DNA of 64,000 bases from positions 1 through 64,000 of the forward strand of contig NZ_JACJRC010000018.1 of the NCBI RefSeq assembly GCF_014697025.1. Direction: 5' to 3'. Both the position numbers and the translations under genes were made by a program. The DNA comes from Alkalinema sp. FACHB-956. Its GTDB lineage: Bacteria; Cyanobacteriota; Cyanobacteriia; Leptolyngbyales; Leptolyngbyaceae. The number at the start of each line of letters is the position of its first letter. The stretch's first letter is position 1. Of the stretch, positions 7,909 to 44,360 are shown piece by piece. The notes below the pieces were generated by a model that was given only the letters and a program-made list of their open reading frames with translations, ran no database searches and had not been told where the DNA came from.

Positions 7909-9046
7909 ATATCGCAACGCATCCGCCATTCAGCAATACGCACAAGCAATAGCAGACATCACAACCCAGCCTTGGACAATCATGGAAATCTGTGGCGGCC
8001 AAACCCACACGATCCTGAAATTCGGCTTAGAACAACTCCTGCCCACCCACCTCACCATTATCCACGGCCCCGGCTGCCCCGTGTGCGTCACCGCGATCGA
8101 AACCATCGAACAAGCCCTCTGGCTCGCCGCCCAACCCCCAGTCATTTTCTGCTCCTTTGGGGACATGTTGCGCGTCCCCGGCTACGATCGAGACTTGCTC
8201 ACCCTCAAAGCCCAGGGCGGCGATGTCAGAACCGTGTATTCGCCCTTAGATGCCGTCAAAATCGCCCAAGCTAATCCCGATCGCGAGGTCGTCTTTTTTG
8301 CCGTGGGTTTTGAAACCACCGCCCCCGCAACCGCCCTAGCCGTGCATCTAGCCCAGCAGCAGCAACTCACTAATTTTTCGATGTTGGTCGCCCATGTCCT
8401 CGTTCCCCCCGCAATGGAGCAATTGTTAGCGGCTCAAAACTGCCAAATTCAAGGCTTTTTAGCCGCAGGGCATGTTTGCACCGTCATGGGCTACGGTGAA
8501 TACGAAACGATCGCCAGCCGTTATCGCGTTCCCATCGTCGTTACAGGGTTCGAGCCGTTGGATATTATGCAGGGAATCTATCACTGTGTGCAGCAGTTGG
8601 AAGCGGGAACTGCCCAAGTAGAAAATCAGTATGCCCGATCGGTTCAGCCCCAAGGGAATCTCACAGCCCAGTCATTTATGCAACAGGTGTTTGAGGTCTG
8701 CGATCGATCGTGGCGCGGCCTAGGAACCATCCCCAACAGCGGACTACGATTAAAGCCCAGTTACGCTCAATTTGACACAGCCCAGCGCTTTGCTCTACCC
8801 ACAGGGAAGCCGCCCAGTGACACCTTAGAGAACGTCCAAGAAAACGTAAACGACAATGCCAATTCCACCTGCATCAGCGGTTTAATTCTACAAGGCTTAC
8901 GGAAGCCCTACCAATGCTCCGTCTTTGGCACAAAATGCACCCCAGAGCATCCCCTCGGAGCCCCCATGGTTTCCTCTGAGGGAGCCTGTGCCGCCTATTA
9001 CCATTATCAATCTCTGACCCATTCCCACCCGTCTACTTCGTCCTAA
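7892..9046 (+). CDS. hypD: Hydrogenase maturation protein HypD
   Basis: 384 residues. HypD is the [4Fe-4S] scaffold on which the Fe(CN)2CO cofactor of [NiFe]-hydrogenase is assembled with HypC and HypE. Seen: EICGGQTH with the conserved cysteine near residue 31, [18 protein letters not shown], and C-terminal cysteines in QCSVFGTKC and SEGACAAYY. The open frame extends upstream inside hypC, but ATG 7892 (MKYLDEYRN) gives the normal HypD start and has GAGGAGG 6 bases before it. The stretch [16 protein letters not shown] near residue 320 looks like a local insertion. Cytoplasmic. Confidence 0.96.
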
Positions 9047-9073
9047 CAGCCCAGTTACTCTTCACTTTTCACT

Positions 9074-10171: not shown

Positions 10172-10378
10172 TAGAGTTGCGAATATAGTTGTTAATACGG
10201 TTGTTAATACGGTTGCGGATAGAATAGTTTTTCCGTTCCTTACCAAGCATCACAAAACCCTAACTTCATCAGGAAACGCTCATAACGATTAATTTTCTCG
10301 CCATCTTCACAAGATCCTCAACTCCATGCCCTATCTTCAAAATCAAAAGTTTGAAGCAATCAGTTGAGGGTTTTCCTC

Positions 10379-13081
10379 ATGGTCACTCATTTCCACGTCA
10401 CCGATCTCCAATCCCTGGAAGCCTTGATTCAGTCCGTCAAAGCCGCCCAGGCCACCTTTGCCACCTACAGTCAAGAACAAGTCGATCACATCTTTAAGCA
10501 GGCCGCCCAAGCCGCCAACGTCGCCCGGATTCCCCTCGCTAAACTCGCCGTACAGGAAACCGGCATGGGCATCATAGAAGATAAAGTGATTAAGAATCAC
10601 TTCGCCTCGGAATTCATCTACAACAAATACAAACACGAAAAAACCTGCGGCATCCTAGAAGAAGATGAGGCCCTCGGCTACCAAACAATCGCGGAACCCG
10701 TTGGCATCCTCGCAGGCATTGTCCCCGTCACCAATCCCACCTCCACCACCATTTTTAAGGCATTGCTGGCACTGAAAACCCGCAATGCCATTATTTTTTC
10801 CCCCCATCCCAAGGCCAAACAATGCACGATCGAAGCAGCCAAAATCATTCTGCAAGCTGCTGTGGCTGCCGGAGCCCCCGAGGGGATCATTGGGTGGATT
10901 GAGGAACCCACCGTCGTCCTGTCCCAAGCCCTGATGCGCCATCCCGACATCAAACTCATCATCGCCACCGGTGGCCCCAACATGGTGAAGGCCGCCTACT
11001 CCTCCGGCCATCCCTCCCTGGGCGTGGGTGCAGGCAATACCCCGGCAGTGATTGACGAAACTGCGCACATCAAAATGGCCGTCTCCTCCATCCTGCTCAG
11101 TAAAACCTTTGACAACGGCATGATCTGCGCCAGTGAGCAAGCCGTCATTGTCATGGATGACGTTTACGAAGCTGTCAAACAGGAATTCCGCGATCGGGGA
11201 GCCCATTTCCTCAGCCCCGCAGACACGGAGCAATTGCGCCAGCACGTCCTCGAAGATGGCCATATGAATCCCGCGATCGTCGGGCAACCCGTCGCCAAAA
11301 TTGCCGACATTGCTGGACTAACGCTGGAAGGCTGGGACACTCCAGAAGGCACGCCCCCAACTATGCCCAAGGTTTTGATTGCTGAAGTTGAAACCATTGG
11401 GGAATCGGAACCCTTTTCCCATGAGAAACTGACTCCGATTCTTGCGATGTATCGAGTTCCCACATTTACGGAAGCAGTTCAAACCGCAGAAAAGTTTGTC
11501 GAATTTGGTGGTAAAGGTCACACTGCGGTGTTATACACAGCACCGAATAACCACAGTCACATTCAAGAATTTGAAACCCATCTGAAAACATCGCGGGTAT
11601 TGATTAACACACCGTCCTCCCAAGGCGCGATCGGCGATCTTTACAACTTCCACCTGGATCCCTCGTTAACGCTAGGATGCGGTAGCTGGGGCGGTAACAC
11701 CATTTCAGCCAACGTGGCCCCGCACCATTTGTTGAACGTCAAAACCGTCTCCGAACGGCGGGAAAACATGCTGTGGTTCCGTGTCCCGCCCAAGGTTTAC
11801 TTTAAGTACGGAGCCGTTTCTTTTGCACTCAAGGAAATCACCGATCGTAAACGCGCCTTCATCGTCACCGATAAACCGTTATTTGACCTCGGCGTCACGA
11901 AGCCAGTCACCGACACCTTAGACCATCTCGGCATCACCCATCAAACTTTCTACGATGTCGAACCCGATCCCTCCCTAGACACCGTCCAGCGGGGCCTGAG
12001 CCAAATTCAACTGTTTGAGCCGGATGTCATCATCGCGATCGGGGGTGGGTCGCCCATGGATGCCGCCAAGGTCATGTGGTTGATGTACGAACAACCGGAG
12101 ACGGAATTTGAGGGCTTGGCCACGCGCTTTATGGACATTCGTAAGCGGGTCTACGAGGTGCAGCCCCTCGGCCAAAAGGCGATGATGATTGCCATTCCCA
12201 CCACCTCCGGCACCGGGTCAGAGGTTACGCCCTTTGCCGTCGTCACCGACACCCGCACAGGCATTAAATATCCCCTCGCCGACTACGCCCTGACCCCCAC
12301 CATGGCGATCGTCGATCCGGAACTCGTCATGCACATGCCGAAGAAGCTGACTGCCTACGGTGGCTTGGATGCCCTCACCCACGCGATCGAAGCCTATGTC
12401 TCCGTCTTCGCTTCAGAATTTACCAACGGGTTAGCCCTGGAAGCCATTCGCCTATTGGTGAAATATCTACCCGCCGCCTACCAAGAGGGAGCCGAAAATC
12501 CCAAGGCCCGCGAGAAAGTTCATTACGCCGCCACTATGGCCGGAATGGCCTTTGCCAACGCCTTCCTGGGCATTTGTCACTCCCTAGCCCACAAATTGGG
12601 TTCAGCATTCCATGTGCCCCATGGTCTAGCGAATGCTTTACTGATCACCCAAGTGATTCGCTACAATGCGACGGATGTGCCCTTCAAACAAGCGATCTTC
12701 CCGCAGTATAAATACCCCAACGCCAAATGGCGCTATGCCCGCATCGCCGATTATCTCAACCTCGGCGGCAACGATGAAGCCGAAAAAGTAGAACGCCTCA
12801 TCGCCACGATCGAAGACCTGAAACGCAAATTAGACGTACCAGCCACCATTAAAGCCGCGATCGCAGTCGATGAGCCGCAATTCCTGGATCACTTAGAAAC
12901 CATGGCAGAACAAGCCTTTGATGACCAATGCACAGGGGCTAACCCTCGCTATCCCCTGATCCAAGATTTGCAGGATTTGTATCTCGCTGCCTATCACGGG
13001 CCATCGGCAGACACGAACTTAGTAGCCAATGAGGTGCCCACGGACTTACCCAGCGATGGGCTACAAAAGATTGGTTGCTAG
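10379..13081 (+). CDS. adhE: Bifunctional acetaldehyde-CoA/alcohol dehydrogenase
   Basis: About 900 residues. AdhE reduces acetyl-CoA to acetaldehyde and then ethanol with two NADH, a fermentative electron sink. The N-terminal aldehyde dehydrogenase half has the catalytic cysteine in DNGMICASEQ (C250). The C-terminal iron-dependent alcohol dehydrogenase half has GGGSPMDAAK, TSGTGSEVTPFAVVTD, and the metal-binding histidines in GLDALTHAIEAY, CHSLAHKLG and HVPHGLANA. The length equals the family norm. ATG 10379 (MVTHFHVTD) is preceded by TTGAGGG at 8 bases; the TTG at 10364 overlaps that site. Neighbouring acyl-CoA synthetase and hyp genes point to dark anoxic metabolism. AdhE usually forms long spiral filaments (family knowledge). 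Confidence 0.96.
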   Translation: MVTHFHVTDLQSLEALIQSVKAAQATFATYSQEQVDHIFKQAAQAANVARIPLAKLAVQETGMGIIEDKVIKNHFASEFIYNKYKHEKTCGILEEDEALGYQTIAEPVGILAGIVPVTNPTSTTIFKALLALKTRNAIIFSPHPKAKQCTIEAAKIILQAAVAAGAPEGIIGWIEEPTVVLSQALMRHPDIKLIIATGGPNMVKAAYSSGHPSLGVGAGNTPAVIDETAHIKMAVSSILLSKTFDNGMICASEQAVIVMDDVYEAVKQEFRDRGAHFLSPADTEQLRQHVLEDGHMNPAIVGQPVAKIADIAGLTLEGWDTPEGTPPTMPKVLIAEVETIGESEPFSHEKLTPILAMYRVPTFTEAVQTAEKFVEFGGKGHTAVLYTAPNNHSHIQEFETHLKTSRVLINTPSSQGAIGDLYNFHLDPSLTLGCGSWGGNTISANVAPHHLLNVKTVSERRENMLWFRVPPKVYFKYGAVSFALKEITDRKRAFIVTDKPLFDLGVTKPVTDTLDHLGITHQTFYDVEPDPSLDTVQRGLSQIQLFEPDVIIAIGGGSPMDAAKVMWLMYEQPETEFEGLATRFMDIRKRVYEVQPLGQKAMMIAIPTTSGTGSEVTPFAVVTDTRTGIKYPLADYALTPTMAIVDPELVMHMPKKLTAYGGLDALTHAIEAYVSVFASEFTNGLALEAIRLLVKYLPAAYQEGAENPKAREKVHYAATMAGMAFANAFLGICHSLAHKLGSAFHVPHGLANALLITQVIRYNATDVPFKQAIFPQYKYPNAKWRYARIADYLNLGGNDEAEKVERLIATIEDLKRKLDVPATIKAAIAVDEPQFLDHLETMAEQAFDDQCTGANPRYPLIQDLQDLYLAAYHGPSADTNLVANEVPTDLPSDGLQKIGC

Positions 13082-13312
13082 TAATTCACGAGTGACCCCA
13101 AGGTTGGACAGACCTTGGACAGCAAATTGTGGGTGTGTTGAATCAAGTAACCCACCCACAAGCTGAAATTTCTCACAGCAGCATCGGCCAGCCAACAGAA
13201 ACAAACCAACAGAAACGAACCGACACAGGCCAAATAACATACGTCAAACAACATACACATACACCAACCAACATACGCCAAACAACACAGGGCAACCTAC
13301 AAGGAGTGGGTT

Positions 13313-16057
13313 ATGCAAGTTTCAGTCAACCAATGTGCCGATCGCGCCCATGACATTCTCCGATCGGAGCACCATCCCCTTGATATCTTCTTTGAACCCA
13401 AAACCGTTGCCGTCATCGGTGCAACAGAACGATTGAATAGTGTTGGTCGAACCATTCTCTGGAATTTGATTCGCCATCCCTTTGGGGGAACTGTTTTTCC
13501 AGTCAATCCAAAGCATCATAATGTCTTGGGTATTAAAGCCTATCCAACGATCGGAAGCATTCCAGAAACCGTTGACCTAGCCATTATCGTAACCCCGGCT
13601 CAGACCGTTCCCAATATTGTCCGCGAATGTGTTGATGCAAACGTCAAGGCAGCCATTATTTTATCCGCAGGCTTCAAGGAAATTGGCGCAGATGGCATTG
13701 CCCTAGAACAACAAGTTTTAGCCGAGGCAAAGCGCGGTCAACTCAGGATCATCGGCCCCAATTGCCTCGGCGTCATGAATCCCCAGGGTGGATTTAACGC
13801 CACCTTTGCCAGCACGATCGCCCGACCTGGCAACATCGGTTTTATCAGCCAAAGTGGAGCCCTTTGTACCGCCATTCTGGACTGGAGCTTCCGGGAAAAC
13901 GTCGGGTTTAGTAAATTCATTTCGATCGGGTCCATGGCCGATGTTGGCTGGGGCGATCTGATTTACTACCTAGGCGATGATCCCTACACCAAAAGCATTG
14001 TCCTGTATATGGAATCCGTGGGCGACGTGCGATCGTTCCTGTCCGCCGCGCGGGAAGTCGCCTTGACCAAACCGATTATCGTCATTAAAGCAGGCCGTAC
14101 CCAAGCTGCCGCCCAAGCTGCTGCCTCCCATACGGGCGCATTAGTCGGCAGTGATGCCGTTTTTGATGCCGCCTTACGACGCTGCGGCGTTCTGCGAGTC
14201 AATAGCATTGCTGAATTATTCGACATCACCGAAGTCCTCGCCAAACAACCCCGTCCCAAGGGCAAACGCCTGACAATTATTACCAATGCAGGTGGCCCTG
14301 GGGTTCTCGCCACCGATGCCCTGATTAGCGACGGGGGGCAGCTTGCAGAACTTTCCGAGGAGACGATCGCAGCCCTTAACCAGGTTCTGCCCGCCCACTG
14401 GAGCCACAGCAACCCGATCGATATTTTGGGCGACGCCACCCCCGATCGCTATGCCCAAGCCATTGAAATTGCCGCGCAAGATCCCAACAGCGATGGATTA
14501 TTGGTGATTTTGACCCCCCAGGCCATGACCCATCCCACCCAAACCGCCCAGCGGTTACAGAAGTATGCCAACCTCGGGAAACCCATTCTCGCCAGTTGGA
14601 TGGGGGATACGGAAGTGGAAGCGGGGGCAGAACTGCTCAACCAAGCCAGCATTCCCACATTCCCGTTTCCCGATACAGCAGCGCGCATGTTTAACTACCT
14701 CTGGCGCTACAGCCAAAATCTGCGCAGCATCTATGAAACGCCTGTTTTATCCTCTGAAAATAACCACGCTCCCCATCGATCGACGGTTCAGAGCATTTTA
14801 CACGAAGCATTAGACCAAGGCCGGACTTTGCTAACGGAAATCGAGTCCAAATCCCTTTTAGCCGCCTATGACATCCCGATCGTACCCACCCAGGAAGCAC
14901 TGAGTGAAGATCAAGCCGTTAACATCGCTGACGAGATCGGGTATCCCGTCGTTCTTAAATTGCTATCGAAAACCATTACCCACAAAACCGATGTCGGTGG
15001 TGTACAACTGAATATTCGCAACGCAGATGCTGTCAGAACGGCCTATCGAACCATTCAGCAATCCGTCACGCAAAAAGTAGGAGACACAGCTTTTAATGGC
15101 GTCACAGTGCAACCGATGCTGAATCAGAAAGGCTATGAACTCATCATCGGCAGTAGCTACGATCCCCTCTTTGGGCCAGTTTTAGCCTTTGGAGCCGGAG
15201 GACAATGGGTCGAAGTCTTTCAAGATGTCGCGATCGCCCTACCGCCCGTAACCACAACCTTAGCCAAACGACTCATGGAACGCACCAAAATTTACCATGC
15301 GTTGCAAGGGGTACGCGGTGAACAGCCCGTGGATTGTGCCGCTCTTGAGCAGTTGATCGTCCGCTTTAGTCAACTCGTCGTCGAGCAACCGCAAATTAAG
15401 GAAATTGAAATCAATCCGCTCCTAGCCCACGGCAACACTTTAACCGCTCTCGATGGCCGAGTCGTCCTCCACGATCGCACGATCGCCCCGGCAACCATTG
15501 CCAAACCCGCCATTCGTCCCTATCCCACCCAATACTGTTCCACTTGGCAATTGCAAGACAAAACAACAGTCACCATTCGTCCTATCCGGCCAGAGGACGA
15601 ACCCTTGCTCATTCAATTCCACAAAACCTTGTCCGAACAGAGCGTATATTTGCGTTATTTCCATTTGATTAAATTAAACCAACGCATTGCCCACGAACGA
15701 CTCCTACGCCTATGTTGCATCGACTACGATCGGGAAATGGCCCTCGTCGCCGATTACCAAAATCCCGCAACAGGAGAACGGGAAATGCTAGGCATTGGTC
15801 GCCTCAGTAAACAGCATGGCGTCAACGAAGCCGAATTTTCATTACTCGTCAGCGATCGCTATCAACACCAGGGGCTAGGCAGCGAAATTTTGCGTCGGTT
15901 AATTGAGATCGGCAAAGCAGAAGGCTTAGACTGGATTCGGGCCACCATTCTCAGCGAAAATCGCGATATGCAACATGTGTGCGATAAACTCGGCTTCCAA
16001 TTGCGCAGAACCGCCGATCCTAGCGTCATTGACGCAGAAATTGCGCTCCGATCGTGA
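13313..16057 (+). CDS. ADP-forming acetate/acyl-CoA ligase fused to a GNAT acetyltransferase
   Basis: 914 residues. Order: CoA-binding Rossmann domain (about 20-150), succinyl-CoA-ligase-like domain with the likely phospho-histidine in [10 protein letters not shown] (about H273), ATP-grasp domain (about 490-720, [18 protein letters not shown]), and a C-terminal GNAT domain (about 750-914) with the acetyl-CoA loop QHQGLG. The NDP-forming half would convert acetyl-CoA, ADP and phosphate to acetate, CoA and ATP, or the reverse. The GNAT half is like the Pat lysine acetyltransferases that silence acyl-CoA synthetases. Whether both halves are active cannot be told; some fused enzymes are acetyltransferases only. 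AAGGAG lies 9 bases before ATG 13313. Position after adhE suggests ATP-yielding acetate formation in fermentation. Confidence 0.88.
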
Positions 16058-27876: not shown

Positions 27877-28116
27877 ATGCCTACCACCAGTCTTGCAAAC
27901 CTCAAACCCGGTCAATCCGCTGAAATTGTAGATTTTGAGGTTGATCCCAGCCTAGAACGTCGGCTCCATGCCCTAGGATTTCGTCAAGGACAGGAAATTC
28001 ATCTTCTGCGACGAGGCTGGCTGTCAGGGCCACTCCATGTACGCATTTGTATGACAGAACTCATGCTGCGTCATCGGGATGCCCATCTCGTTCGCGTCAC
28101 TGCGGTGAACGGTTAA
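27877..28116 (+). CDS. feoA: Ferrous iron transport protein FeoA
   Basis: 79 residues of the SH3-like FeoA fold: SLANLKPGQSAEIVDFE, RRLHALGFRQGQEIHLLRRG, and a terminal L-RHRDAHLVRV strand. FeoA binds the cytoplasmic part of FeoB and is needed for Fe(II) uptake. It ends 6 bases before feoB, so the two form an operon. No Shine-Dalgarno sequence is visible before the ATG. Confidence 0.93.
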   Translation: MPTTSLANLKPGQSAEIVDFEVDPSLERRLHALGFRQGQEIHLLRRGWLSGPLHVRICMTELMLRHRDAHLVRVTAVNG

Positions 28117-28122
28117 CGATCC

Positions 28123-29916
28123 ATGAAACGTATTGCTGTTCTGGGAATGCCCAATACGGGTAAGTCCACATTTTTTAACCGCTTCACTGGTTCCCATGCT
28201 CACATTGGGAACTGGCCAGGAATCACTGTTGACTTAATGCTAGCCACGGTCAAGCTGGGCCATGAGTTAGCTGAAGTGGTTGATCTACCTGGCATCTATG
28301 ATTTACGGGGACTCTCCGAGGACGAGGCCGTTGTTCAACGATTTTTGGAAACAACTCCCGTTCATCTAGTCCTGGTTGTTTTGAATGCAACTCAGATCGA
28401 TCGCCAGATCTCCCTACCGCTCCAAGTGCTTCAACTGGGCGTACCCGTTGTATTGCTGTTGAACATGGTGGATGAAGCAGCGCGATTTGGGGTACGGGTC
28501 AACCCTGAGATTTTGTCCGATCGCTTGGGGATTCCTGTGTTTCCCATCAGTGCCAAGTATGGCGCAGGTTACCCAAAGGCGATCGAGGCGATCACAGAAG
28601 TGTTAGATCAGCAGGATCACCCCATTCAGGTCAACAACATCAGCCAGCAACTCCCTGCCGAACTCCCCTCTAACCGTACCCTCCAAACGCTATTAGCCGA
28701 CGCAGTGCAAATGCCCGCTCGCCTCTCCGATCGCTGGAGCAGTCGGCTCGATCGGATTTTATTGCATCCCATCCTGGGTTTACCCATCTTTTTCAGCGCG
28801 ATGTATCTGGTATTCCAGACCATTTACGCCATGGGTACCCCCCTCCAAGCAAGCCTAGGCGACGGCTTAGAGTGGTTAAAACTGAATGCCCTGGAGCCTC
28901 TTCTAGCAAACTTTCCTGCGTTTCTCAGGGGATTTCTAATTGATGGTGTCTATGAAGGCTTAGGAACCGTTGCAGCATTTCTCCCAGTCATTTTTCTGTT
29001 TTTTCTCTGCATGGCGATCGTGGAGGATAGCGGCTACCTGTCCCGCTCTGCATTCCTGATGGATGCCCTGATGGAACGATTGGGACTGGATGGGCGATCG
29101 TTTGTTATGTCCCTGATGGGATTTGGCTGTAATGTACCGGCTCTTTTAGGCACGCGGGTCATGCGATCGCCGGGACTCCGCATGTTATCCATGCTAGTGA
29201 TTCCCTTTTCATTGTGTTCTGCGCGATTGAATGTGTTTATCTTCATCACATCGGCCATGTTTGCCGCCACCATCGCGCCAACCGTTCTTTTTAGTTTATA
29301 TCTCATGAGTTTTGCAGCGGCAATCCTGACTGCTGCACTGTTTAAGGGAAAGTTCACGACCCAAGAGCCCCTGGTTTTAGAACTGCCTCCCTACCGTCTC
29401 CCAACGTTGAAGCAAATCCTAGTGCGAGCTTGGTGCGAAGTCAAACATTTTTGGATTTGGTCACGACGGTTCATTATTGTGGGAGTTATTGCAATTTGGC
29501 TCCTCAATAACCTACCCACCAATGTCCCCTCAGCCAGCAGTCAAACCCTATCAGGGCTACTGGGACAGACCTTACAACCGCTCTTTGCTCCCCTAGGAAT
29601 CAATGCCCAATTAACGATCGCCCTCTTTTTTGGATTTATTGCGAAAGAGATTGTCCTCGGGGGGTTAGCAGTTATTTACAGCCAAGCCGCAGAATCCGAC
29701 CTAGCCGGGACGATCGCCCAGCAAATCGATTGGGTACAAGCCTACAGCTTTATGCTCTTTACGTTGCTGTATATTCCCTGTCTATCCACGATCGCCGTGT
29801 TGAAAAATGAAGCGAAAAGCCTGCGGTTTGCCCTACTATCCGTCGGATGGTCCCTCGGATTGGCTTGGATAGCCAGTTTTGTCTTCTACCAAGGAGCACG
29901 GGCATTAGGGTTCTAG
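28123..29916 (+). CDS. feoB: Ferrous iron transporter FeoB
   Basis: 597 residues. N-terminal G-protein domain with G1 GMPNTGKST (residues 8-16), G3 DLPG and G4 NMVD, followed by a helical linker and a membrane domain of about eight segments, including SGYLSRSAFLMDALM and the GFGCNVPALLGTR block with the conserved cysteine of the Fe(II) path. It imports Fe(II), which dominates under anoxia, matching the fermentation and low-oxygen genes nearby. The protein is shorter than E. coli FeoB (about 770) mainly in loops and C-terminus. Confidence 0.95.
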   Translation: MKRIAVLGMPNTGKSTFFNRFTGSHAHIGNWPGITVDLMLATVKLGHELAEVVDLPGIYDLRGLSEDEAVVQRFLETTPVHLVLVVLNATQIDRQISLPLQVLQLGVPVVLLLNMVDEAARFGVRVNPEILSDRLGIPVFPISAKYGAGYPKAIEAITEVLDQQDHPIQVNNISQQLPAELPSNRTLQTLLADAVQMPARLSDRWSSRLDRILLHPILGLPIFFSAMYLVFQTIYAMGTPLQASLGDGLEWLKLNALEPLLANFPAFLRGFLIDGVYEGLGTVAAFLPVIFLFFLCMAIVEDSGYLSRSAFLMDALMERLGLDGRSFVMSLMGFGCNVPALLGTRVMRSPGLRMLSMLVIPFSLCSARLNVFIFITSAMFAATIAPTVLFSLYLMSFAAAILTAALFKGKFTTQEPLVLELPPYRLPTLKQILVRAWCEVKHFWIWSRRFIIVGVIAIWLLNNLPTNVPSASSQTLSGLLGQTLQPLFAPLGINAQLTIALFFGFIAKEIVLGGLAVIYSQAAESDLAGTIAQQIDWVQAYSFMLFTLLYIPCLSTIAVLKNEAKSLRFALLSVGWSLGLAWIASFVFYQGARALGF

Positions 29917-30681: not shown

Positions 30682-31665
30682 TTAGGTCAAAGTAAAGCTG
30701 GGTGAAGGGCCAAAAATGCGATCGGTTAACTTCACATACCAAGCCGCAGCCTGAACCTGAATAATGTAAGCCATGGCAATAATTAAAGCAATTTCAGAGC
30801 CCTGCTCTTTCCCAAAGGCCGTCATCGCGATCGCAAGGGCAATGGACAAATTACGCATGACCGTGCCATACACTAAAGCAATCGCATCTCCCCGTTGAAA
30901 GAACATCTTACCTACAACTGTACTGATTAAAAAATTTGCAACATATAAAATTGCCAAAGGAATCAGAAAAGATAACAAGATACCAGGGTTGCTAACAATA
31001 CTCTTCGCTTTGAGAGCCATGGCAACAAAGACAATCCCTAAAACCCCGATCGTCGAAAAACTGGGAAACTTCTCTTTGAGATTTTTTTGATACTTATCCA
31101 TTCTCACAATGCGAATTAGGATAAGCCGCGTGGCAATCCCCAAAATCATCGGCAGAAATACAATGATAATAATTTGTCGGAAAATATCCATAAGGGGAAT
31201 TTCGATCGCGGCTCCCATCAGCCACTTCGCATAAAACGGAGTCGCCAGTGAACCTAGGATTAAACCCACCACCGTCATTTTGACCGCAGCACTCAGATTG
31301 CCCTTCGCAAAGCCTGTCCAGGAAATGGTCATTCCACTAGTGGGTAACAGCGAAGCCAACAGTAGCCCCAACAGCACCAAAGGCTGCCCATGGAAAAACA
31401 GTTGGCCAATTCCAAAAGCCATAAATGGGATAACAGCAAAATTGATCAACTGCGTCACGAATTGAAGCTTAAAATCTCCTCCCGTCAACACTTTTTGAAT
31501 TTGCAAATTGATCATCATGGGATAGACCATGAGGAACGTTAGCGGAATCACCCAAGCCTTCAGTGGATCTGGGTTCACCACTACGCCTATGACAATTCCT
31601 GCAATCATACAAATGGGAATCGACCAAACCAAATTTTTCTGAAGCAGCCCTAAAAATTTCCACAC
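30682..31665 (-). CDS. Bile-acid:sodium symporter / ACR3-type permease
   Basis: About 327 residues with about ten hydrophobic segments (for example IPICMIAGIVIGVVV, FVTQLINFAVIPFMAFG). The LLPTSGMTISWTGFAKGN and TVMRNLSIALAIAMTAFG blocks place it in the BASS/ACR3 superfamily, which includes arsenite exporters and organic-anion:sodium symporters. Substrate is not decidable. GTG 31665 is chosen since AGGAGGG lies 8 bases upstream; the open frame continues 22 residues further. It follows the DUF302 gene on the same strand (115 bp), so the two are likely cotranscribed from the operator region at 32.3 kb. Confidence 0.8.
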   Translation of the reverse strand: MWKFLGLLQKNLVWSIPICMIAGIVIGVVVNPDPLKAWVIPLTFLMVYPMMINLQIQKVLTGGDFKLQFVTQLINFAVIPFMAFGIGQLFFHGQPLVLLGLLLASLLPTSGMTISWTGFAKGNLSAAVKMTVVGLILGSLATPFYAKWLMGAAIEIPLMDIFRQIIIIVFLPMILGIATRLILIRIVRMDKYQKNLKEKFPSFSTIGVLGIVFVAMALKAKSIVSNPGILLSFLIPLAILYVANFLISTVVGKMFFQRGDAIALVYGTVMRNLSIALAIAMTAFGKEQGSEIALIIAMAYIIQVQAAAWYVKLTDRIFGPSPSFTLT

Positions 31666-31780
31666 AATAGTTGCCCTCCTGTAGCATGGGTCAACTGCTG
31701 ACCATTCAGTCAACCCAAGGTTAATGATCAATCCGTGACTTCTGTAAAGGCGCTAGTCAAGGCGCTAGTGAATTCGTCAT

Positions 31781-32191
31781 TTATGCCGGAAGCGAAGCAT
31801 TTTGCCTTAACCGCTCCATCACAGCCTGCATAATTTGACTCCCTTCGTTAGCAATCACTTGAGCATGGGGATCAGTAATCGCTAGAAACATCATCTTAGG
31901 ATCAACCGCAGACACCTCAATTTGGCCGTTTTCCTGTTCCTGAACAACAACATTACAAGGGTAAAAGACACCCGCCTTATCATCGGTCTGCAACATCCGA
32001 TAGGCGATTTTGGGATGGCAAGCGCCTAGGATTTTGTAACGGCGGAAATCAACATCCAGCTTTTTCTTAAAGGCCGCTTGGACATCAATCTCGGTCAGAA
32101 TCCCCATCCCTTCCGCCTGAAGCGCTGCGGTCACCTGCGCGATCGCGTCATCAAAGGTGCAATTCAAAGTTTGACTGAAGTGATAAGCCAT
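31781..32191 (-). CDS. DUF302-domain protein
   Basis: 136 residues. The family is recognised by FDDAIAQVTAALQAEGMGILTEIDVQAAF, ILGACHPKIAYRML and PCNVVVQEQENGQIEVSAVDP. Biochemical function is unknown; DUF302 genes are often found beside sulfur-oxidation or metal-resistance genes. No signal peptide, so cytoplasmic. It starts next to the operator-like sequences at 32297-32330 and is divergent from the haem-protein gene. Confidence 0.85.
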   Translation of the reverse strand: MAYHFSQTLNCTFDDAIAQVTAALQAEGMGILTEIDVQAAFKKKLDVDFRRYKILGACHPKIAYRMLQTDDKAGVFYPCNVVVQEQENGQIEVSAVDPKMMFLAITDPHAQVIANEGSQIMQAVMERLRQNASLPA

Positions 32192-32296
32192 CGGTTATAG
32201 CCTAATGAGCGTGAACAATTGTCAACTATATTAAGGAGCTGAGTGAAAGGTCTAAGGAATTCGCCCGGTAAGAATCAGACTTCACCAGCTAGTTGA

Positions 32297-32316
32297 TAAT
32301 ATAACTAAATAGTTGT
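32297..32316. promoter_or_regulatory. Operator-like motif, copy 1 (DUF302 / haem protein)
   Basis: TAATATAACTAAATAGTTGT lies between the divergent DUF302 and haem-protein genes. Its core ATAAC...GTTgT is an imperfect inverted repeat. The same 20-mer, 17 of 20 identical, is found at 44632-44651 upstream of the sulfide:quinone oxidoreductase. A dimeric repressor site is the natural reading. Confidence 0.6.
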
Positions 32317-32330
32317 AGAATGCAACTATT
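32308..32330. promoter_or_regulatory. Second inverted repeat overlapping the operator-like motif
   Basis: AATAGTTG (32308-32315) pairs with CAACTATT (32323-32330) across 7 bases. Together with AGTT at 32291 and AACT at 32303, the stretch 32290-32330 holds four alternating TAGTT/AACTA half-sites, as for a regulator binding more than one dimer. Confidence 0.55.
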
Positions 32331-32419
32331 GAATTCAATCTCTTCAGAAATAACCTGTGGGCAGCCATGACTTGCGGGTAATTTCCCTACTTAGCAGCAT
32401 TACATCGAGGCATCCCACC

Positions 32420-33085
32420 ATGGTCAACGAGTTTTCCCAATTTTCTTTGAGGCTACTGTTTGGGATGGTGATTATTCTCGGGATCATTTGCTGGATCATC
32501 CCAGCACCCGCTTGGGCTATAGAAGCTTCGATCGCCCAGTCCGTACCGCCGATCGTCACCAATCCAGCTGAGTTAACCAAAGCCATTCAAGCGATCGAGG
32601 ACTTAGATCAGATGCGATCGGGACTTGCTTCTACGTTGGAAGGACACACCGAAGAACCAACCCTGGAAACGATGAAAGAAGTTTGCCGTCCCGTAGGTAT
32701 GCAGGCGCAACGACTCAGCCAAGAAAACGGTTGGCAGGTCAAGCAAATAGCCGATAAATATCGCAATCCCGATCATGCGCCGGACAGTTCCCAGGCACGC
32801 CAAGCCTTAGCAACCTTTAGAAAAAATCCGGACTTAATGGGATTTTGGGAACATGCAACAATCAACGGGCAAGCAGGCACTCGTTACTATCGCCGCATTA
32901 ATGTAGAAGCCAGTTGCCTCGCCTGTCACGGACAGAAAAATCAACGGCCTCAGTTTATTCAAGAGAAGTATCTCGACGATCGCGCCTATGATTTCAACGT
33001 GGGCGACCTACGCGGCATGTATTCCGTTTTCATGCCTGATCTGAAAGCCGCCATTCAATCCGCATTACAAGACGGGATTCAGTAA
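32420..33085 (+). CDS. Secreted Tll0287-like (DUF3365) c-type haem protein
   Basis: About 221 residues. A signal peptide or membrane anchor (LRLLFGMVIILGIICWIIPAPAWA) precedes a domain ending with the haem-c motif CLACH (C166, C169, H170). The fold is like cyanobacterial Tll0287, a haem protein with a PAS-like arrangement whose role (redox sensing or electron transfer) is open. The DFNVGDLRGMYSV block after the haem site is typical of DUF3365. I chose ATG 32420 (MVNEFSQF); a GTG at 32357 would give a longer N-terminus. It starts a plus-strand series of secreted proteins and shares its control region with the DUF302 gene. Confidence 0.8.
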   Translation: MVNEFSQFSLRLLFGMVIILGIICWIIPAPAWAIEASIAQSVPPIVTNPAELTKAIQAIEDLDQMRSGLASTLEGHTEEPTLETMKEVCRPVGMQAQRLSQENGWQVKQIADKYRNPDHAPDSSQARQALATFRKNPDLMGFWEHATINGQAGTRYYRRINVEASCLACHGQKNQRPQFIQEKYLDDRAYDFNVGDLRGMYSVFMPDLKAAIQSALQDGIQ

Positions 33086-33225
33086 GCGATTCAGTAAATG
33101 ATTTAGTCAAGGTTCCAGCCAAGATTCTCGATCAATTGATACGAATTCAATCAGACTTTCCCCAGTTAGTCATCCGTAGTCATTTGTTCTTGCTGTCAAT
33201 GATTTCTTAAAACGTACTTCCATCG

Positions 33226-33771
33226 ATGTCTAAGCAATTCTCTCTCTGGTTACGCTCCATAATCGCGATCGTCATCATCACTGTAATTACATTGACCACA
33301 GTTTTAGGCTTCATCCCAACCTTACCCGCGATCGCAGCCATCCAGCAATTTGAGGAACAACCGGGTCAAACCGTCTACCAAACCAGACACCCACTCAAGG
33401 ATCAACAAGGTCGCACCTGGCAAGCGATCGCCTTTAAGCGCATTAAACCCGATGGAGCCACCGTCTTGAATTTCAGACTGGCAGGATTCCCCGGCAGCGT
33501 TCGGATCGATCGCACCCAGCCCCTACAATTCCGCAATTCCTTTGGCGAGATCCTCACCGCTGAGGACGCCTCTAGTCAAATGTTTAGCAATACCAACGCA
33601 CCGGAACCCCACATTGGACAATACAACCTACAACCGATTGTGTCTGATTTACGACTAGAGCTGCCTTGGCGCATAACCCTACCCACAGAATCCGGTAATG
33701 CCATCACATTCGCCTTACCCGCCACATTCCTAGCCGATTGGAGAACGTTGGATCAGCAAACCAAGGATTAG
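33226..33771 (+). CDS. DUF3122-like secreted protein
   Basis: 181 residues with an N-terminal hydrophobic segment (SIIAIVIITVITLTTVLGF) and cleavage-like ALA-type site (LPAIAAIQQF), then a beta-rich domain. The DUF3122 assignment, a family largely limited to cyanobacteria, rests on general pattern and context. Function is unknown. It lies between two other secreted proteins in the same orientation, in a possible operon from 32420 to 35183. Confidence 0.6.
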   Translation: MSKQFSLWLRSIIAIVIITVITLTTVLGFIPTLPAIAAIQQFEEQPGQTVYQTRHPLKDQQGRTWQAIAFKRIKPDGATVLNFRLAGFPGSVRIDRTQPLQFRNSFGEILTAEDASSQMFSNTNAPEPHIGQYNLQPIVSDLRLELPWRITLPTESGNAITFALPATFLADWRTLDQQTKD

Positions 33772-33883
33772 AGTCAGCAGCCGGTCATCACAAGTCGGTC
33801 ATCGTTGATTCACCCGCAATCCATCACTTTTACGATCGTGCATCCATCCCCTAGCAAACATTCTTCCAACCCTGGAGATCAGC

Positions 33884-34399
33884 ATGAATTCCTACCGCCT
33901 ACAGTATGGATTAACCGCTAGTTTTTCCGTTTTCGCGATCGGGTTAATGGTTTCTGCCACCTCACCCACCACCACCATGAGCGCCGCTAGTCCGCCCCTA
34001 GATGCAAAAACCCACCAGGCCATGATTGATGCCATCAACGATGAGTTTCATGCACGCGCTTTCTACACCGCAGTCATCCAGAAATTTGGGACTCTCCGTC
34101 CTTTTAGCAACATTGTCCAAGCGGAAAATCGCCATGTTCAGCACTGGGAAACGCTTTTCCAACGCTATGGAATCCCCATCCCCCAGGACACCTTTGCCGA
34201 TCGAGTAGACGCCCCGCAAACCTTGCGACAAGCCTGTCAAATGGGCATCGATGCTGAAATTGCCAACATCAAACTGTACGACAATTTTTTAAATTTTGTT
34301 CAACAGACTGATTTGCGGGATCTCTTCACACAATTACGTTCCGTTTCCGAAAACAACCATAAACCGGCGTTTGAGCGTTGTCTACAACGACAATCTTAA
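33884..34399 (+). CDS. Secreted ferritin-like (DUF2202-type) protein
   Basis: 171 residues. After a signal peptide-like segment (FSVFAIGLMVSATSP), four helices carry the acidic and histidine residues of a ferritin-like di-iron bundle: NDEFHARAFYTAV, AENRHVQHWETLF, DAEIANIKLYDNF and SENNHKPAFERC. The E-x-x-H pairs in helices 2 and 4 could bind two metal ions. Family role is unclear; metal binding or peroxide handling in the periplasm is plausible. Confidence 0.75.
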   Translation: MNSYRLQYGLTASFSVFAIGLMVSATSPTTTMSAASPPLDAKTHQAMIDAINDEFHARAFYTAVIQKFGTLRPFSNIVQAENRHVQHWETLFQRYGIPIPQDTFADRVDAPQTLRQACQMGIDAEIANIKLYDNFLNFVQQTDLRDLFTQLRSVSENNHKPAFERCLQRQS

Positions 34400-34466
34400 C
34401 AACGCCCCTCTTAACGTTGATCCTGACTTCAATCACGATTCCTTAACTACCTACGGGAGAACACCC

Positions 34467-35183
34467 ATGCCATCCACGATCGCATCCACCTCAACCCACC
34501 ACCAACCCAACCAACCGCCAGCCCTCCCAGAAATTCCCCCCGGCTATCTTAATGTCATGGGCTATGTAGATAACTCCGAAGTCAATGGCCCTGGGGTGCG
34601 GGCCGTCCTGTGGGTACAGGGCTGTGGACGGCATTGTCCGGGCTGCTTCAATTCCCATTCTTGGCCCTTTGAGATTAACCAATTGGTGAGTGTGGACGAA
34701 GTGGTGCGCCAGGTTCTGCGCGAACCTCGCAACCAAGGCATCACCTTTTCCGGTGGCGAACCCTTTAAGCAAGCAGTGGCCTTAGCCCAGGTCGCTAAAC
34801 AACTGAAGGCGCAAGGATTGACCGTAATGTCCTTTACAGGCTTTACGCTGGAACAATTGCGATCGCGCCAAGCCCCAGTGGGTAGTCAGGACTTACTCGA
34901 CCAGTTAGACATTCTCATTGATGGCCCCTACGTTGCCTCCCAGGCCATTCATTCCCCCAATTCCCCCGTCTCCTCTAGCAATCAACGGGTGCATGTGTTT
35001 AACCCAGCGCTACAACATCAAATTGACTGGGCCAGCGACGCAGTAGAAATCCATATTTTGCAAGATGGTCAGCGGATTATCACAGGCTATCGCGGCCACA
35101 TGGCTTTCTCCGAGTCGGAAGATGAATCTGGAATGGCATTCCAATCTGAGCGGGGATCTCATTCCGCCACTGCTCCAGCTTAA
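34467..35183 (+). CDS. Radical-SAM activase-like protein (NrdG/4Fe-4S single-cluster type)
   Basis: About 238 residues. The radical-SAM cluster motif CxxxCxxC is intact (CGRHCPGC) after VLWVQG, followed by the GGEPF SAM-binding block, TGFTLEQL and DILIDGPYV. This matches glycyl-radical-enzyme activases such as anaerobic ribonucleotide reductase activase NrdG. No NrdD or pyruvate-formate lyase is in the window, so the partner is elsewhere or it has another role. ATG 34467 has GGGAGA 6 bases upstream; the longer open frame would overlap the DUF2202 gene. Its stop codon overlaps the end of the convergent NUDIX gene by 4 bases. Confidence 0.8.
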   Translation: MPSTIASTSTHHQPNQPPALPEIPPGYLNVMGYVDNSEVNGPGVRAVLWVQGCGRHCPGCFNSHSWPFEINQLVSVDEVVRQVLREPRNQGITFSGGEPFKQAVALAQVAKQLKAQGLTVMSFTGFTLEQLRSRQAPVGSQDLLDQLDILIDGPYVASQAIHSPNSPVSSSNQRVHVFNPALQHQIDWASDAVEIHILQDGQRIITGYRGHMAFSESEDESGMAFQSERGSHSATAPA

Positions 35184-39805: not shown

Positions 39806-42556
39806 TCACAGAATCAACTTGAAAAAAATCAACGTCAAACTCATCATACAGAGCAAATGGGGTAGATTATGAATCCACGATCGCTGAGTAATTCGTAACA
39901 GTGGATAAACACTAAATCCTAAACCTGATAGCAAGGTTAATCCCTGTAAAAACTGAGCAACATCTATACTCCAAGTTAAGGTTGGCCAACCTAGTCCACT
40001 GAAACCAAATGTTCTTGCCATGACCGGGAGAATTTGACCCGCTTCCGTCATGGCAGCAGGAGTGTAGTGAGCAAGATTAGCCGCAAGGGTGATGGGTAAA
40101 TAGGCATAAATTACGGTTAAATAATCTGGCATTTGCCGATCGAACAATCGAGCGAACTGATGCACTATGTAGGTCAACAGCATTGGTAAGCTCAATATCC
40201 CCAACACCCAGGGAAGTCCAGTCCACAAATGATTAGCATCAATACTCCAGTTAGCCGCACCTACCAGAGCTAAGATACGATCGCTATGGTGCATGAACAC
40301 ACCACCCAATAATAGCAACAATAGAGCAACTTCCGCCCCAAAACCACGGTGATCTTCTAATAAATCCGTGGCTGGAAAGCGTAAATTTAATTGCACCGAT
40401 CGATTCGGACAAGCTTTCAAGCACGTCATACATAACACACAATCACGATTATCCTGCAATTGCGCGGGATGGGAATAGAGTGGACACCCCCCCGTAGCTT
40501 GACCTTCGTTCGGTAATGCATCCTTGAAACTCACTGGCGTTGCATCACTCCCTTTATAGCAACCAAACGTACTACACTGAGTGCCACAGATTTGTTGGGT
40601 CGATCGTAGTTCCAGCAATGATAGTTTTGCAAACAAACCATTCATTCCACCAATGGGACAAAGATAGCGACACCAGACACGGCGTTCATAAATCACACTC
40701 CCAATGACCGCCCCCGCAGAAATCACCACTAGCAACCAGGACGACAAATAGGGGGTATGGGGCAAATCCCAAAACTTTTCCCATAGATAAATCAACAAGA
40801 ATCCCCCAAACAGTAGCCATGCCCCCCAGCGATTCAGCCACTTCGTTGGCCAGGGTAATAACGGCCTCGGCCACAACCAGAGCGAAATTTGCCGGAACCA
40901 CTCCCCCGTAATCATAAAAGGACAAATTGCACACCACAATCGTCCAACAAACAAAAATAAAAATAAATACAAAGGCCACCACCAAGCCCAAAAAAGATTC
41001 AGCGTCATGCTGGCATCCCGAGTTTGGGGACCGATATACCCCATCACGGTGACGGGTATAAACATCAGCATTACAACCATCCAGAAACCCTTAGGCCACC
41101 ATGAACTCAAGAGCAAACGCCGTAGCCAAGGTAACTGTTCCAAGAGGTCAATGCGGAAGGCATTTTTCTTCGATTGTAATGACCATAATACTTGTTCCGG
41201 AATCACCGTTTGGTCTACAGGCGTCATGATCACCGCCCGTTTCAGAATACCTGCTAATTCAGGTAAGTTGCCAGGGTAGTCATAACTAAGCAAGCGACGA
41301 AGATCAGCCTGACTGAGTTGCAAGACTGAGCGCCCCTGCGCCTGACAGAATTGGGCAATCAAACTGTCCGCAAATGCAGGAATATCACTTTTGCGCTGAG
41401 CCAGCGTATATAACTTGAGCCGATGGGCAGAAATTTCCGGCAAGGCGATCGGGTAAGGACTGGCCAAAATCAGCCTCGCCCAAGAGGCCACAGGCCCAAC
41501 TTTGAAATCATCAATTTTAGGATTCCCTTGAGCATTGACAGTAGAATCCGTCAAATTAGCCTGCGCTCTGGTTGTATTCAGCAAAGGATTTCGCAGGAAA
41601 TGCCCCGTTTTCAGATAGTGGATCAGCCGATCGTGATCCGCCGGAGACAACATCTGTACCTGATCCAACAACACCGTGCCCCGCTCCAGTAACTCGATGA
41701 CCCCCGCAGCTTCCCCGTCCCGACCAAAAATCACATCTGAACTGACAAAGCCAGTCGTATCTCGCGGCAGTTGGGTGCAGTCGATTTCCACAAAGGGTCG
41801 ATCGCGCAAACCTGACTGCTGATGCAAATAACCAGCCAAGAACGTTTTTCCGGTTCCATTGGCCGCTTGAAACACGATCGGCTTCACGTCTTGGGCCGCT
41901 AGTTCAATCTGTTGAATCAACTTCTGAGCCGCTTTACTGGCCGCGATCGGCGTTATATTGTGGGGTGTAGAACAAATCCAGTCTTGTAATCCCTGAATAC
42001 GAACTTGTTCCTGGGAGATCCGTTGAGTAAACTCAGCCAAGTCCTTGACTAAGAGTTGGCTGATCAAATTGAGAATCGCCGGAAAGGCTTGACTCAATTG
42101 GAGTAAACTCGATCGCCCCAGAAACCAGATTTCGCTAGCACTCACTGCAATCGCACTGGTTTGATAGGTCACTGCGATGGAGGCAAGATCCTCGCCCCCA
42201 TCAGTCATCAAACTAGAGACTAAGGGGACATAACCAAACACATCCCCGGCCTGATGGTAAAGAATATGGGTTTTTCCCACAGCGGAGGCGCGATAAATTT
42301 CCACACTGCCCCACTTCAGCCAATAGAGCCCGATCGCCCCTTGACCTTCCCGGTAAATTTCTGTCCCGGCAGCCACTTTCATGGACTGTAGAGACTGGGC
42401 AATCGCAGCTAAAGTCAGATCATCCAATTGCCCCCACACCCGATGAAAACTCAGCCACTCTAAAGAGTCCTCTGCCATAGCGGGATTGGTGGCAGCGCCG
42501 TCCTCTGTCACCGACCCCAATGGTAAAAGGATAACTTCACCCATTCTCTTTGACAT
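39806..42556 (-). CDS. Chimera: cyclic-nucleotide-binding domain, degenerate sigma-54-type AAA+, membrane polyferredoxin
   Basis: 916 residues. Order: Crp-like cyclic-nucleotide-binding domain (about 45-160); AAA+ domain of sigma-54-activator type (about 200-465) with Walker A NGTGKT (233-238), Walker B-like TVLLDQ (294-299) where the catalytic E is Q, no GAFTGA loop, but YDYPGNLPELAGILKRA retained; then a membrane polyferredoxin (about 485-916) with WCAICP (C542, C545), WCRYLCP (C629, C633), four cysteines CGTQC, C666 and C691, and CVLCMTCLKACP (706-716), as in NapH/NosR/CcoG. It has no Fis-type DNA-binding domain and cyanobacteria have no sigma-54, so it is unlikely to activate transcription. 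More likely it is a membrane redox sensor or electron-transfer protein. Likely cotranscribed with the small protein 28 bases upstream, and perhaps with the quinone oxidoreductase. Confidence 0.85.
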   Translation of the reverse strand: MSKRMGEVILLPLGSVTEDGAATNPAMAEDSLEWLSFHRVWGQLDDLTLAAIAQSLQSMKVAAGTEIYREGQGAIGLYWLKWGSVEIYRASAVGKTHILYHQAGDVFGYVPLVSSLMTDGGEDLASIAVTYQTSAIAVSASEIWFLGRSSLLQLSQAFPAILNLISQLLVKDLAEFTQRISQEQVRIQGLQDWICSTPHNITPIAASKAAQKLIQQIELAAQDVKPIVFQAANGTGKTFLAGYLHQQSGLRDRPFVEIDCTQLPRDTTGFVSSDVIFGRDGEAAGVIELLERGTVLLDQVQMLSPADHDRLIHYLKTGHFLRNPLLNTTRAQANLTDSTVNAQGNPKIDDFKVGPVASWARLILASPYPIALPEISAHRLKLYTLAQRKSDIPAFADSLIAQFCQAQGRSVLQLSQADLRRLLSYDYPGNLPELAGILKRAVIMTPVDQTVIPEQVLWSLQSKKNAFRIDLLEQLPWLRRLLLSSWWPKGFWMVVMLMFIPVTVMGYIGPQTRDASMTLNLFWAWWWPLYLFLFLFVGRLWCAICPFMITGEWFRQISLWLWPRPLLPWPTKWLNRWGAWLLFGGFLLIYLWEKFWDLPHTPYLSSWLLVVISAGAVIGSVIYERRVWCRYLCPIGGMNGLFAKLSLLELRSTQQICGTQCSTFGCYKGSDATPVSFKDALPNEGQATGGCPLYSHPAQLQDNRDCVLCMTCLKACPNRSVQLNLRFPATDLLEDHRGFGAEVALLLLLLGGVFMHHSDRILALVGAANWSIDANHLWTGLPWVLGILSLPMLLTYIVHQFARLFDRQMPDYLTVIYAYLPITLAANLAHYTPAAMTEAGQILPVMARTFGFSGLGWPTLTWSIDVAQFLQGLTLLSGLGFSVYPLLRITQRSWIHNLPHLLCMMSLTLIFFKLIL

Positions 42557-42584: not shown

Positions 42585-42935
42585 TTAAGGTTTCACTTGC
42601 AATGTCCGATCTAGTTCTGCCAGCAAATCCACCAGCCGTTGTTTCACCGAATCAAGACTGATTGCCGGATTATCCTCAATACCCATCGCCGTCAATTGCA
42701 ACCCAATCTCCACCGCATCCTGGGGACTAAAACTTAACACCAACATTTGTGATGCAGTTTTATGGGGATCCACTTCCAAATTGAGGTGAATTTCCGCTGG
42801 GTTTTGGGCTTCTTGACCCACGATCGCGCCAATCCGCGACACTTTACTCCCTCGCACCGTCATCACATCTTCCACATGGCCCATCACGGTGATGTTGCCC
42901 GTCGTCAGATCATGGGTGACATATTTGACCGTCAT
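42585..42935 (-). CDS. Small unrecognised protein between SQR and chimera genes
   Basis: 116 residues (MTVKYVTHDLTTGNITVMGH...). No signal peptide or membrane segment. A predicted beta-rich half (RGSKVSRIGAIVG, EIHLNLEVD) is followed by a helical C-terminus (SLDSVKQRLVDLLAELDRTL). I cannot assign a family. AGGAGG stands 7 bases before the ATG, so it is well translated. Gaps of 28 bp to the chimera and 120 bp to the SQR gene suggest one transcript. Confidence 0.7.
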   Translation of the reverse strand: MTVKYVTHDLTTGNITVMGHVEDVMTVRGSKVSRIGAIVGQEAQNPAEIHLNLEVDPHKTASQMLVLSFSPQDAVEIGLQLTAMGIEDNPAISLDSVKQRLVDLLAELDRTLQVKP

Positions 42936-43019: not shown

Positions 43020-43058
43020 TCATCATCATGAACTCATCATGAACTCATCATGAACTCA
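43020..43058. repeat. 11-bp tandem repeat at SQR stop codon
   Basis: TCATCATGAAC repeats three times (about 43023-43055), ending in the TGA stop of the oxidoreductase at 43056-43058. Copies lie just downstream of the gene on the minus strand. Confidence 0.85.
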
Positions 43059-44360
43059 TCCATTGGCAATGCGCTGGGAGAGGGTACTCGGCTGCGATCG
43101 CACCAGATCGACCCCAAATAACGCCTTTAACCCCGACCGCTCAAACCAAGGAACCGCCGCCCCTAAACGCATCTTGGTCATAAAGTATTGCTCAAAGGCC
43201 GCTTTGCCCCAAACCACCCATTTGCCTTGCACCGCATAGGAATAGCGACGTTTTCCAGTCTCTGAGTCAGGCAGCACAGGAGCCGCAACATAGAGAATGC
43301 CCGTCTCCCCAAACTCCGCAAAGCAAATGGCTTCTAACGTGGGGATTTGCGGATCGGCCTGAAGGGCTCCCAACGAGACTGCGATATTATGGGCCACTGC
43401 CATCCCCATAGCTTCCGTCATTTGGCCACTCTTGGGCATCCCGATCGGCACTAGAGACTTCTCCGGCTGCGCCAGAGCTACACTAACCCCCAAGGCATAA
43501 ATCTCAGGGAACTGGGAATGCTGGTGGGTCGCCGTAATGGGAATAAACCCTTTGTCATTGCCCAAACCCGGTGCATCGAGAATAAATTGCACACCTCGGA
43601 ACGCTGGCAAAATCATCGCGTAATCTTGGGCAATCTCTCGCCCATCCTCTAGCGTAATTTTATCGACCGTCACTGATGTAATTGCAGCATTGTTAATAAT
43701 ATTAATATTGTGTTTACGCAATAAGTTTTCCGTCAATCGCTGCGCATTTTTCACGCCACTCACCCCTAAATGTCCGACATAGGGTTCTGGTGTCACCAAG
43801 GTGAGGGTAGCTTGCTGGCGTAATCCTTTGCGCCGCAAAATCCAATCAGCCATCAAGATAAACTCATAGGCTGGCCCAAAGCATCCCGCTCCCGGTGCCG
43901 CCCCCACCACCAACGATCCAGGGTTTTCCAAAAACTTGAGCCAAGCAGCCCTAGCCTCCAAAGCATGTTGAGCGGAGCAAATCGAATGGGTATAACCTCC
44001 GTGGGGCCCCAACCCAGGAATGGCGTCAAAGGCAAATCCTGGCCCCGTCGCGATCGCCACATAGTCATACTCAATTACCTGCCCATTGGCTACCGTAATG
44101 CGCCGTTGATGCGGATCGAGAGCAGTTACCGGGCTATTGACAAAGTCTAACCTGTGCTTTTGCGCCAAGGGTTGCAGCTCTAACTGAAAATGATCGATCG
44201 AATCAAGATCTAACGCCACGCGAACCAGCCCCGGAATAAACATAAATTTGGGCTGCTCGGAAATTAGGACCACTTGATGTTCAGCAGGCAAAAGCTGTCT
44301 CAGTTCGTAAGCCGTGGGCAGTCCACCCAAACCAGCTCCAATCACAACAATTGTAGCCAT
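43056..44360 (-). CDS. sqr: Sulfide:quinone oxidoreductase-like flavoprotein
   Basis: 434 residues. FAD fold VVIGAGLGGLPTAYEL at the start. The three cysteines of SQR are present: C128 (HSICSAQ), C160 (GAGCFGPAYEF) and C346 (EAICFAEFG), close to the positions in Rhodobacter SQR (C127, C159, C353), with an unhindered quinone-binding region and C-terminal segment. It would oxidise sulfide to polysulfide or sulfur and reduce plastoquinone. A related NDH-2 role is possible but would not need these cysteines. GAATT-CTCCT-AATTC, an inverted repeat around the AGGAG of the leader, lies at 44368-44382. First gene of a minus-strand series; a shared operator-like motif lies 270 bases upstream. Confidence 0.82.
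   Translation of the reverse strand: MATIVVIGAGLGGLPTAYELRQLLPAEHQVVLISEQPKFMFIPGLVRVALDLDSIDHFQLELQPLAQKHRLDFVNSPVTALDPHQRRITVANGQVIEYDYVAIATGPGFAFDAIPGLGPHGGYTHSICSAQHALEARAAWLKFLENPGSLVVGAAPGAGCFGPAYEFILMADWILRRKGLRQQATLTLVTPEPYVGHLGVSGVKNAQRLTENLLRKHNINIINNAAITSVTVDKITLEDGREIAQDYAMILPAFRGVQFILDAPGLGNDKGFIPITATHQHSQFPEIYALGVSVALAQPEKSLVPIGMPKSGQMTEAMGMAVAHNIAVSLGALQADPQIPTLEAICFAEFGETGILYVAAPVLPDSETGKRRYSYAVQGKWVVWGKAAFEQYFMTKMRLGAAVPWFERSGLKALFGVDLVRSQPSTLSQRIANG

Follow-up and report, generated by a model that had tools for sequence, protein, structure and literature searches.

NapH, NosR and RdhC share a module of four helices and two cysteine motifs that has been assigned to quinol-linked electron transfer, and two of these proteins, NosR and RdhC, were originally named transcriptional regulators (PMC5928378). 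The window, our term for the whole 64,000-nucleotide stretch of Alkalinema sp. FACHB-956 DNA analyzed here, encodes a protein in which a membrane module of this kind follows a CRP-fold domain and a degenerate AAA+ domain. On balance, we think that it is a membrane-bound Fe-S redox protein of the NapH/NosR kind carrying a pseudo-AAA+/CRP-fold scaffold, and that it represents a sulfide/low-oxygen paralogue working together with a cysteine synthase, CysK.

The initial annotation had described three modules in one protein, and this was borne out: the gene (39806..42556, minus strand, as are all of its parts below) is a single intact open reading frame of 916 amino acids without internal stops, and its Pfam domains score over cut-off. 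A CRP-fold/cNMP_binding domain at residues 60-156 (42089..42379; Pfam E 4.5e-10, over the gathering cut-off) is followed by a Sigma54_activat AAA+ core at residues 205-322 (41591..41944; Pfam 6.5e-13, over cut-off), from which the GAFTGA loop region is deleted. Within the core, the Walker A motif FQAANGTGKTFL (residues 229-240, 41837..41872) has its first Gly substituted and retains GKT, and the Walker B motif GTVLLDQV (residues 293-300, 41657..41680) has Gln at the position of the catalytic Glu. The AAA lid (AAA_lid_14, residues 387-456, 41189..41398; Pfam 4.5e-12, over cut-off) contains YPGNLPEL. In an AlphaFold model the AAA+ part folds like NtrC1/PspF (Foldseek match to 1ny5, E 1.5e-11). 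Transmembrane helices begin at about residue 487, directly after the lid, and a search for a DNA-binding domain beyond the lid found none in Pfam or in the membrane-module model. Each motif that the initial annotation had reported as lost or kept (no GAFTGA, LLDQ at Walker B, YPGNLPEL retained, no C-terminal DNA-binding domain) was thus seen in the sequence. NCBIfam matches were to NtrC-family regulators, NapH and NosR, all far under cut-off.

The domain order CRP-fold, AAA+, polyferredoxin recurs as a single open reading frame in dozens of genera and hundreds of cyanobacteria; the survey of homologues proposed earlier found the same order across the Cyanobacteriota, with sqr in the neighborhood in some islands. 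Matches to the family turned up in 31 of 39 relatives and, across the phylum, in 103 of 386 genomes, and a scan of GTDB genomes returned 544 genome matches (more than 500 relatives), the best 80 of which are all cyanobacterial. Outside the cyanobacteria, the plasmid matches listed were to the AAA+ domain alone or to a Deinococcus membrane module, with no complete fusion among them. Relatives are overwhelmingly single open reading frames, which speaks against the idea that frameshift errors hide separate proteins; the few split copies lie in draft genomes (G018, G030, G004 and G150). These copies are also all that favors a chimera or assembly artefact, a reading with negligible probability that we rejected, as the identical single-frame layout is found in many independent genomes, closed plasmids included. 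Given this recurrence and a cysteine set that is invariant in 86 of 86 members, the shared architecture and cysteines far exceed chance. Separately, four contigs (L129, L135, L136 and L139) carry at least two adjacent pieces of the family gene, sometimes also of cysK, which could be tandem copies or frameshifts.

The family splits into two subfamilies, and conservation was counted over 86 non-redundant members, 51 of subfamily A and 35 of subfamily B. Subfamily A, to which the window protein belongs, is about 55-66% identical to it and patchily distributed. Subfamily B is 37-42% identical to the window protein, near-universal among relatives, and may be ancestral; the host genome also encodes a B member (C3:421366-423900). 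Some members, picocyanobacterial and other, are missing the CNB domain and retain the AAA+ and polyferredoxin parts.

Loss of the activator motifs extends across the family. A GAFTGA-like motif occurs in none of the 86 members, and the relatives examined yielded neither an intact GAFTGA nor a DNA-binding domain, the two features that the initial annotation had named as evidence against its own reading. The Walker B Glu position holds Asn in 81 of 86 members and Gln, His or Lys in the rest, never Glu. The absence of sigma-54 that had been claimed for cyanobacteria also held: a PF00309 search of the host genome gave no match and PF04552 exceeded cut-off in 0 of 117 genomes of the phylum, with positive controls in E. 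coli, B. subtilis and others. The gene would be a working enhancer-binding activator, as annotated (NtrX or sigma-54-interacting regulator), only in the face of all these losses and a C-terminus embedded in the membrane. Pfam and Foldseek do group its AAA+ part with NtrC-type activators, but we regard that reading as extremely improbable and rejected it; judged by its motifs, the fusion protein is not a transcription activator. The lost motifs and the domain order together support the earlier proposal that a dead sigma-54-activator scaffold has been reused in a membrane Fe-S protein.

The suggestion that the protein responds to a nucleotide fared less well. The phosphate-binding cassette of the CNB domain is without its Glu and Arg in both subfamilies (GE is replaced by GY in A and by HL in B), and because this cassette is lost we rejected a reading as a cAMP receptor. 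Nucleotide gating is further weakened by the members that have no CNB domain; what stands is the P-loop of subfamily A, where GKT is retained in all but one member (Ile there). In subfamily B, by contrast, Walker A has the form GEPGL[E/G/N]KD and the P-loop Gly is gone in many members. This difference suggests that A may bind ATP without hydrolyzing it and that B probably does not bind ATP.

The membrane and Fe-S module (residues 487-916, 39809..41098) consists of four transmembrane helices, a ferredoxin-like insert and about five further helices. AlphaFold modeled residues 456-916 in this layout at pLDDT 85.5 and pTM 0.85. Two Cys-Pro motifs, C542-X2-C545-P (40919..40933) and C629-X3-C633-P (40655..40672), belong to the four-helix module, and Fer4_5 matches residues 608-645 (E 1.2e-6, over the Pfam gathering cut-off). 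The ferredoxin-like part (40406..40588) reads C657-X3-C661-X4-C666, C691-P and C706-X2-C709-X2-C712-X3-C716-P, and its Fer4 motif CVLCMTCLKACP at residues 703-718 lies below the Pfam cut-off. Since an even number of helices precedes the ferredoxin part, all cysteines are predicted by the model to lie on the side of the AAA+ domain, facing the cytoplasm. A C-terminal membrane domain (residues 740-916, 39809..40339) carries an invariant H756 and a mostly conserved H830. We rejected a two-His heme site at this pair because Tyr replaces H830 in 10 of the 51 A members, although H756 is invariant. A fold search of the PDB with the membrane module gave no match, and its profile found only weak ferredoxin-type matches among PDB sequences (E 0.06 or worse).

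Conservation is concentrated in this half of the protein. Twelve cysteines, H756 and Lys237 are invariant in all 86 members, as are the CX2CP and CX3CP motifs of the four-helix module; the ferredoxin-like part contributes eight of these cysteines, with the first spacing altered, and they are putative ligands for two 4Fe-4S clusters. Identity is highest in the Fe-S/membrane region (79-81% within A, 59-65% between A and B) and, among folded domains, lowest in the CNB part (53% within A, 25% between A and B). Subfamily A also has its own insertion (ATPVSFKDALP-like, at about residues 671-683), which lies between the third and fourth ferredoxin cysteines and is missing in B.

On the minus strand of the window, sqr comes first, followed by a 116-aa orphan, the fusion gene and cysK. 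The sulfide oxidoreductase neighbor named in the initial annotation is a sulfide:quinone reductase (SQR) homologue upstream (43056..44360; 5.9e-89 to Aquifex SQR, 3hyv), and alignment to solved SQRs shows that it keeps all three active-site Cys positions. The orphan (42585..42935) was assigned to no family; it has weak relatives, 32-41% identical, in the L094, L118, L139 and L141 islands. Downstream lies a dedicated cysteine synthase, a cysK paralogue that passes TIGR01139 (38619..39650). It begins 155 bp beyond the fusion gene and may have its own promoter; a promoter and terminator scan found no more sites than in shuffled sequence.

Where neighborhood data exist, 31 of the 50 A members have a same-strand cysK directly downstream, often within 50 bp, and none of the 32 B members does (Fisher 9e-10). 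The linkage occurs in deep A branches (the window, Acaryochloris, Nodosilinea, Roseofilum, Pseudanabaena and Synechococcus), and the linked gene is a distinct paralogue: its copies in other islands are 70-78% identical to the window copy, and the remaining CysKs encoded in those genomes reach 57-63%. Most A copies of the Nostocales have no adjacent cysK, so the coupling is not obligatory. SQR is within reach in only some A islands. Its co-occurrence with subfamily A at the genome level is modest (SQR is present in 7 of the 11 genomes with A and in 20 of the 92 family genomes without it; p 0.007, a value not corrected for phylogeny). Thus cysK is a stronger partner than sqr, and the link to sulfide metabolism proposed earlier is better shown by the dedicated cysK and the sulfide/low-oxygen islands than by SQR alone. 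Subfamily A probably partners with the sulfur metabolism that centers on its own cysteine synthase.

Besides SQR, the subfamily A islands contain ArsR, rhodanese, Tll0287-like, DUF3122, DUF4079, DUF302-like and DUF2202-like proteins and RND pumps, and further Rieske PetC, D1, heme oxygenase, HemN, rubrerythrin-type and B12/radical-SAM proteins; their tetrapyrrole genes are micro-oxic and their PetC and D1 are alternative forms. Two A islands are plasmid-borne, one of them on a plasmid typed as conjugative. In the plasmid islands L187:9055-21319 and L188:18346-26320, cysK and the fusion gene are accompanied by alternative PetC and D1, and L188 additionally holds SQR-like, ArsR, rhodanese, KatG and DsrE genes. 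In the window itself, 30682-34399 encodes an ACR3/SBF-type transporter and DUF302-like, Tll0287-like, DUF3122 and weak DUF2202 proteins, and its small proteins recur in other A islands. Farther away, 7718-16057, 27877-29916 and 34296-35183 encode HypD, HypE, AdhE, an acetate-CoA ligase-like protein, FeoA/FeoB and an NrdG-like radical SAM activase; the set of HypD, HypE, AdhE, the acetate-CoA ligase-like protein, FeoB and the NrdG-like activase is a fermentative, low-oxygen setting.

The ArsR genes found in several of these islands bear on a different possibility, that the protein is a redox or sulfide sensor, not an enzyme, whose Fe-S/quinone part reads plastoquinone or sulfide and whose CRP-fold and pseudo-AAA+ domains relay the signal to a separate transcription factor such as the island ArsR. 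Most members do retain regulatory-type N-terminal domains, and the GKT P-loop of nearly all A members fits such a relay. However, ArsR is no constant neighbor, the conservation described above is concentrated in the Fe-S/membrane part and not in the would-be output part, and picocyanobacterial and some other forms dispense with the CNB domain entirely, so that we consider a sensor possible but rather unlikely.

Family members have probably been mis-annotated as transcriptional regulators, as their motif losses suggest, and public product names are probably misleading. Aulosira laxa NIES50_69290, a full-length orthologue (61%) with a cysteine synthase directly downstream, is named 'nitrogen assimilation regulatory protein'; Pseudanabaena galeata OA858_RS24855 (59%), also full-length and also with a cysteine synthase directly downstream, is named 'cyclic nucleotide-binding domain-containing protein'. 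Synechocystis slr1529 bears the same product name as the Aulosira member and is, by that name, a candidate member and a lead. It has been treated as a transcription regulator (PMC5318462, PMC4182526, PMC3516471); the mutant of this name-linked gene was not among the 4 of 32 with altered growth, and its metabolome was shifted at 72 h (PMC5318462). Our search of the open-access literature found no functional study of the family under its present description, and a literature search for the domain combination gave no match.

Expression of this candidate member, slr1529, was repressed ~3.4-fold by high copper (PMC4182526), which is of interest for the view that the protein is a NosR- or CcoG-like factor for assembly or maturation, supplying electrons for a maturing metal centre, for example in low-oxygen alternative photosynthetic complexes. 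The alternative PetC and D1 genes of A islands and the activation of NosZ attributed to NosR (PMC5928378) point the same way. Linkage to PetC/D1 is nevertheless rarer than linkage to cysK, and no conserved metalloenzyme target was found in subfamily B neighborhoods; a maturation role therefore appears improbable to us.

For the redox protein that we favor, we infer electron transfer and its direction, the clusters bound, the contact with quinone, the partner and the gating. Electrons would move between the membrane part and the plastoquinone pool, and two [4Fe-4S] clusters on the cytoplasmic side would connect this flow, in one direction or the other, to a partner in the cytoplasm. The pseudo-AAA+ domain would at most bind nucleotide, performing neither hydrolysis nor sigma-54 contact, and could form with the CRP-fold a cytoplasmic scaffold for oligomerization, docking or gating. 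The window paralogue would act alongside its linked cysteine synthase, joined by SQR in some genomes, most likely balancing quinone-linked sulfide or sulfane-sulfur chemistry against sulfur assimilation into cysteine. A bolder version, which we offer as speculation, is that the family is an ancient and widespread redox class in which a dead AAA+ ring, no longer tied to sigma-54, acts as the gate of an Fe-S relay linked to quinone, and that in its mobile sulfide branch the redox state of plastoquinone is coupled to a cysteine synthase of the branch's own, which would be a new sulfide-to-assimilation route in anoxygenic or micro-oxic photosynthesis. If members are redox proteins, they would be an overlooked component of cyanobacterial electron transport, and experiments that handled them as transcription factors would have been misread. 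The sulfide paralogue would offer a testable handle on cyanobacterial sulfide handling, a question in anoxygenic photosynthesis.

Compared with known systems, the family resembles the enhancer-binding proteins NtrC1, PspF and NifA in its AAA+ core/lid fold and in YPGNLxEL, but differs from them in being membrane-bound and in having no GAFTGA, Walker B Glu, DNA-binding domain or sigma-54 partner. The membrane module is encoded alone on a Deinococcus plasmid: Deinococcus ficus DFI_RS15945, a 4Fe-4S membrane protein, matches the entire membrane/Fe-S module (29%, E 3e-51) with a similar Cys pattern, but has no AAA+ or CRP-fold, no adjacent cysK, and CX3CF as its second motif. This stand-alone form suggests that the fusion plausibly arose by joining such a module to an activator scaffold. 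Against NapH (TIGR02163) the window protein scores 28.2 bits versus a cut-off of 213, and against NosR (NF046105) 22.6 versus 1000. Unlike NapH, NosR and RdhC, the family has CX2CP instead of CX3CP as its first motif, CX3CX4C as its first ferredoxin motif, an extra C-terminal membrane domain of ~180 aa, the N-terminal CRP-fold and AAA+ domains, and no FMN domain. What it shares with all three is the set of four N-terminal helices with two Cys-Pro motifs on one side, and with NapH and NosR also the C-P ligands of ferredoxin-type clusters.
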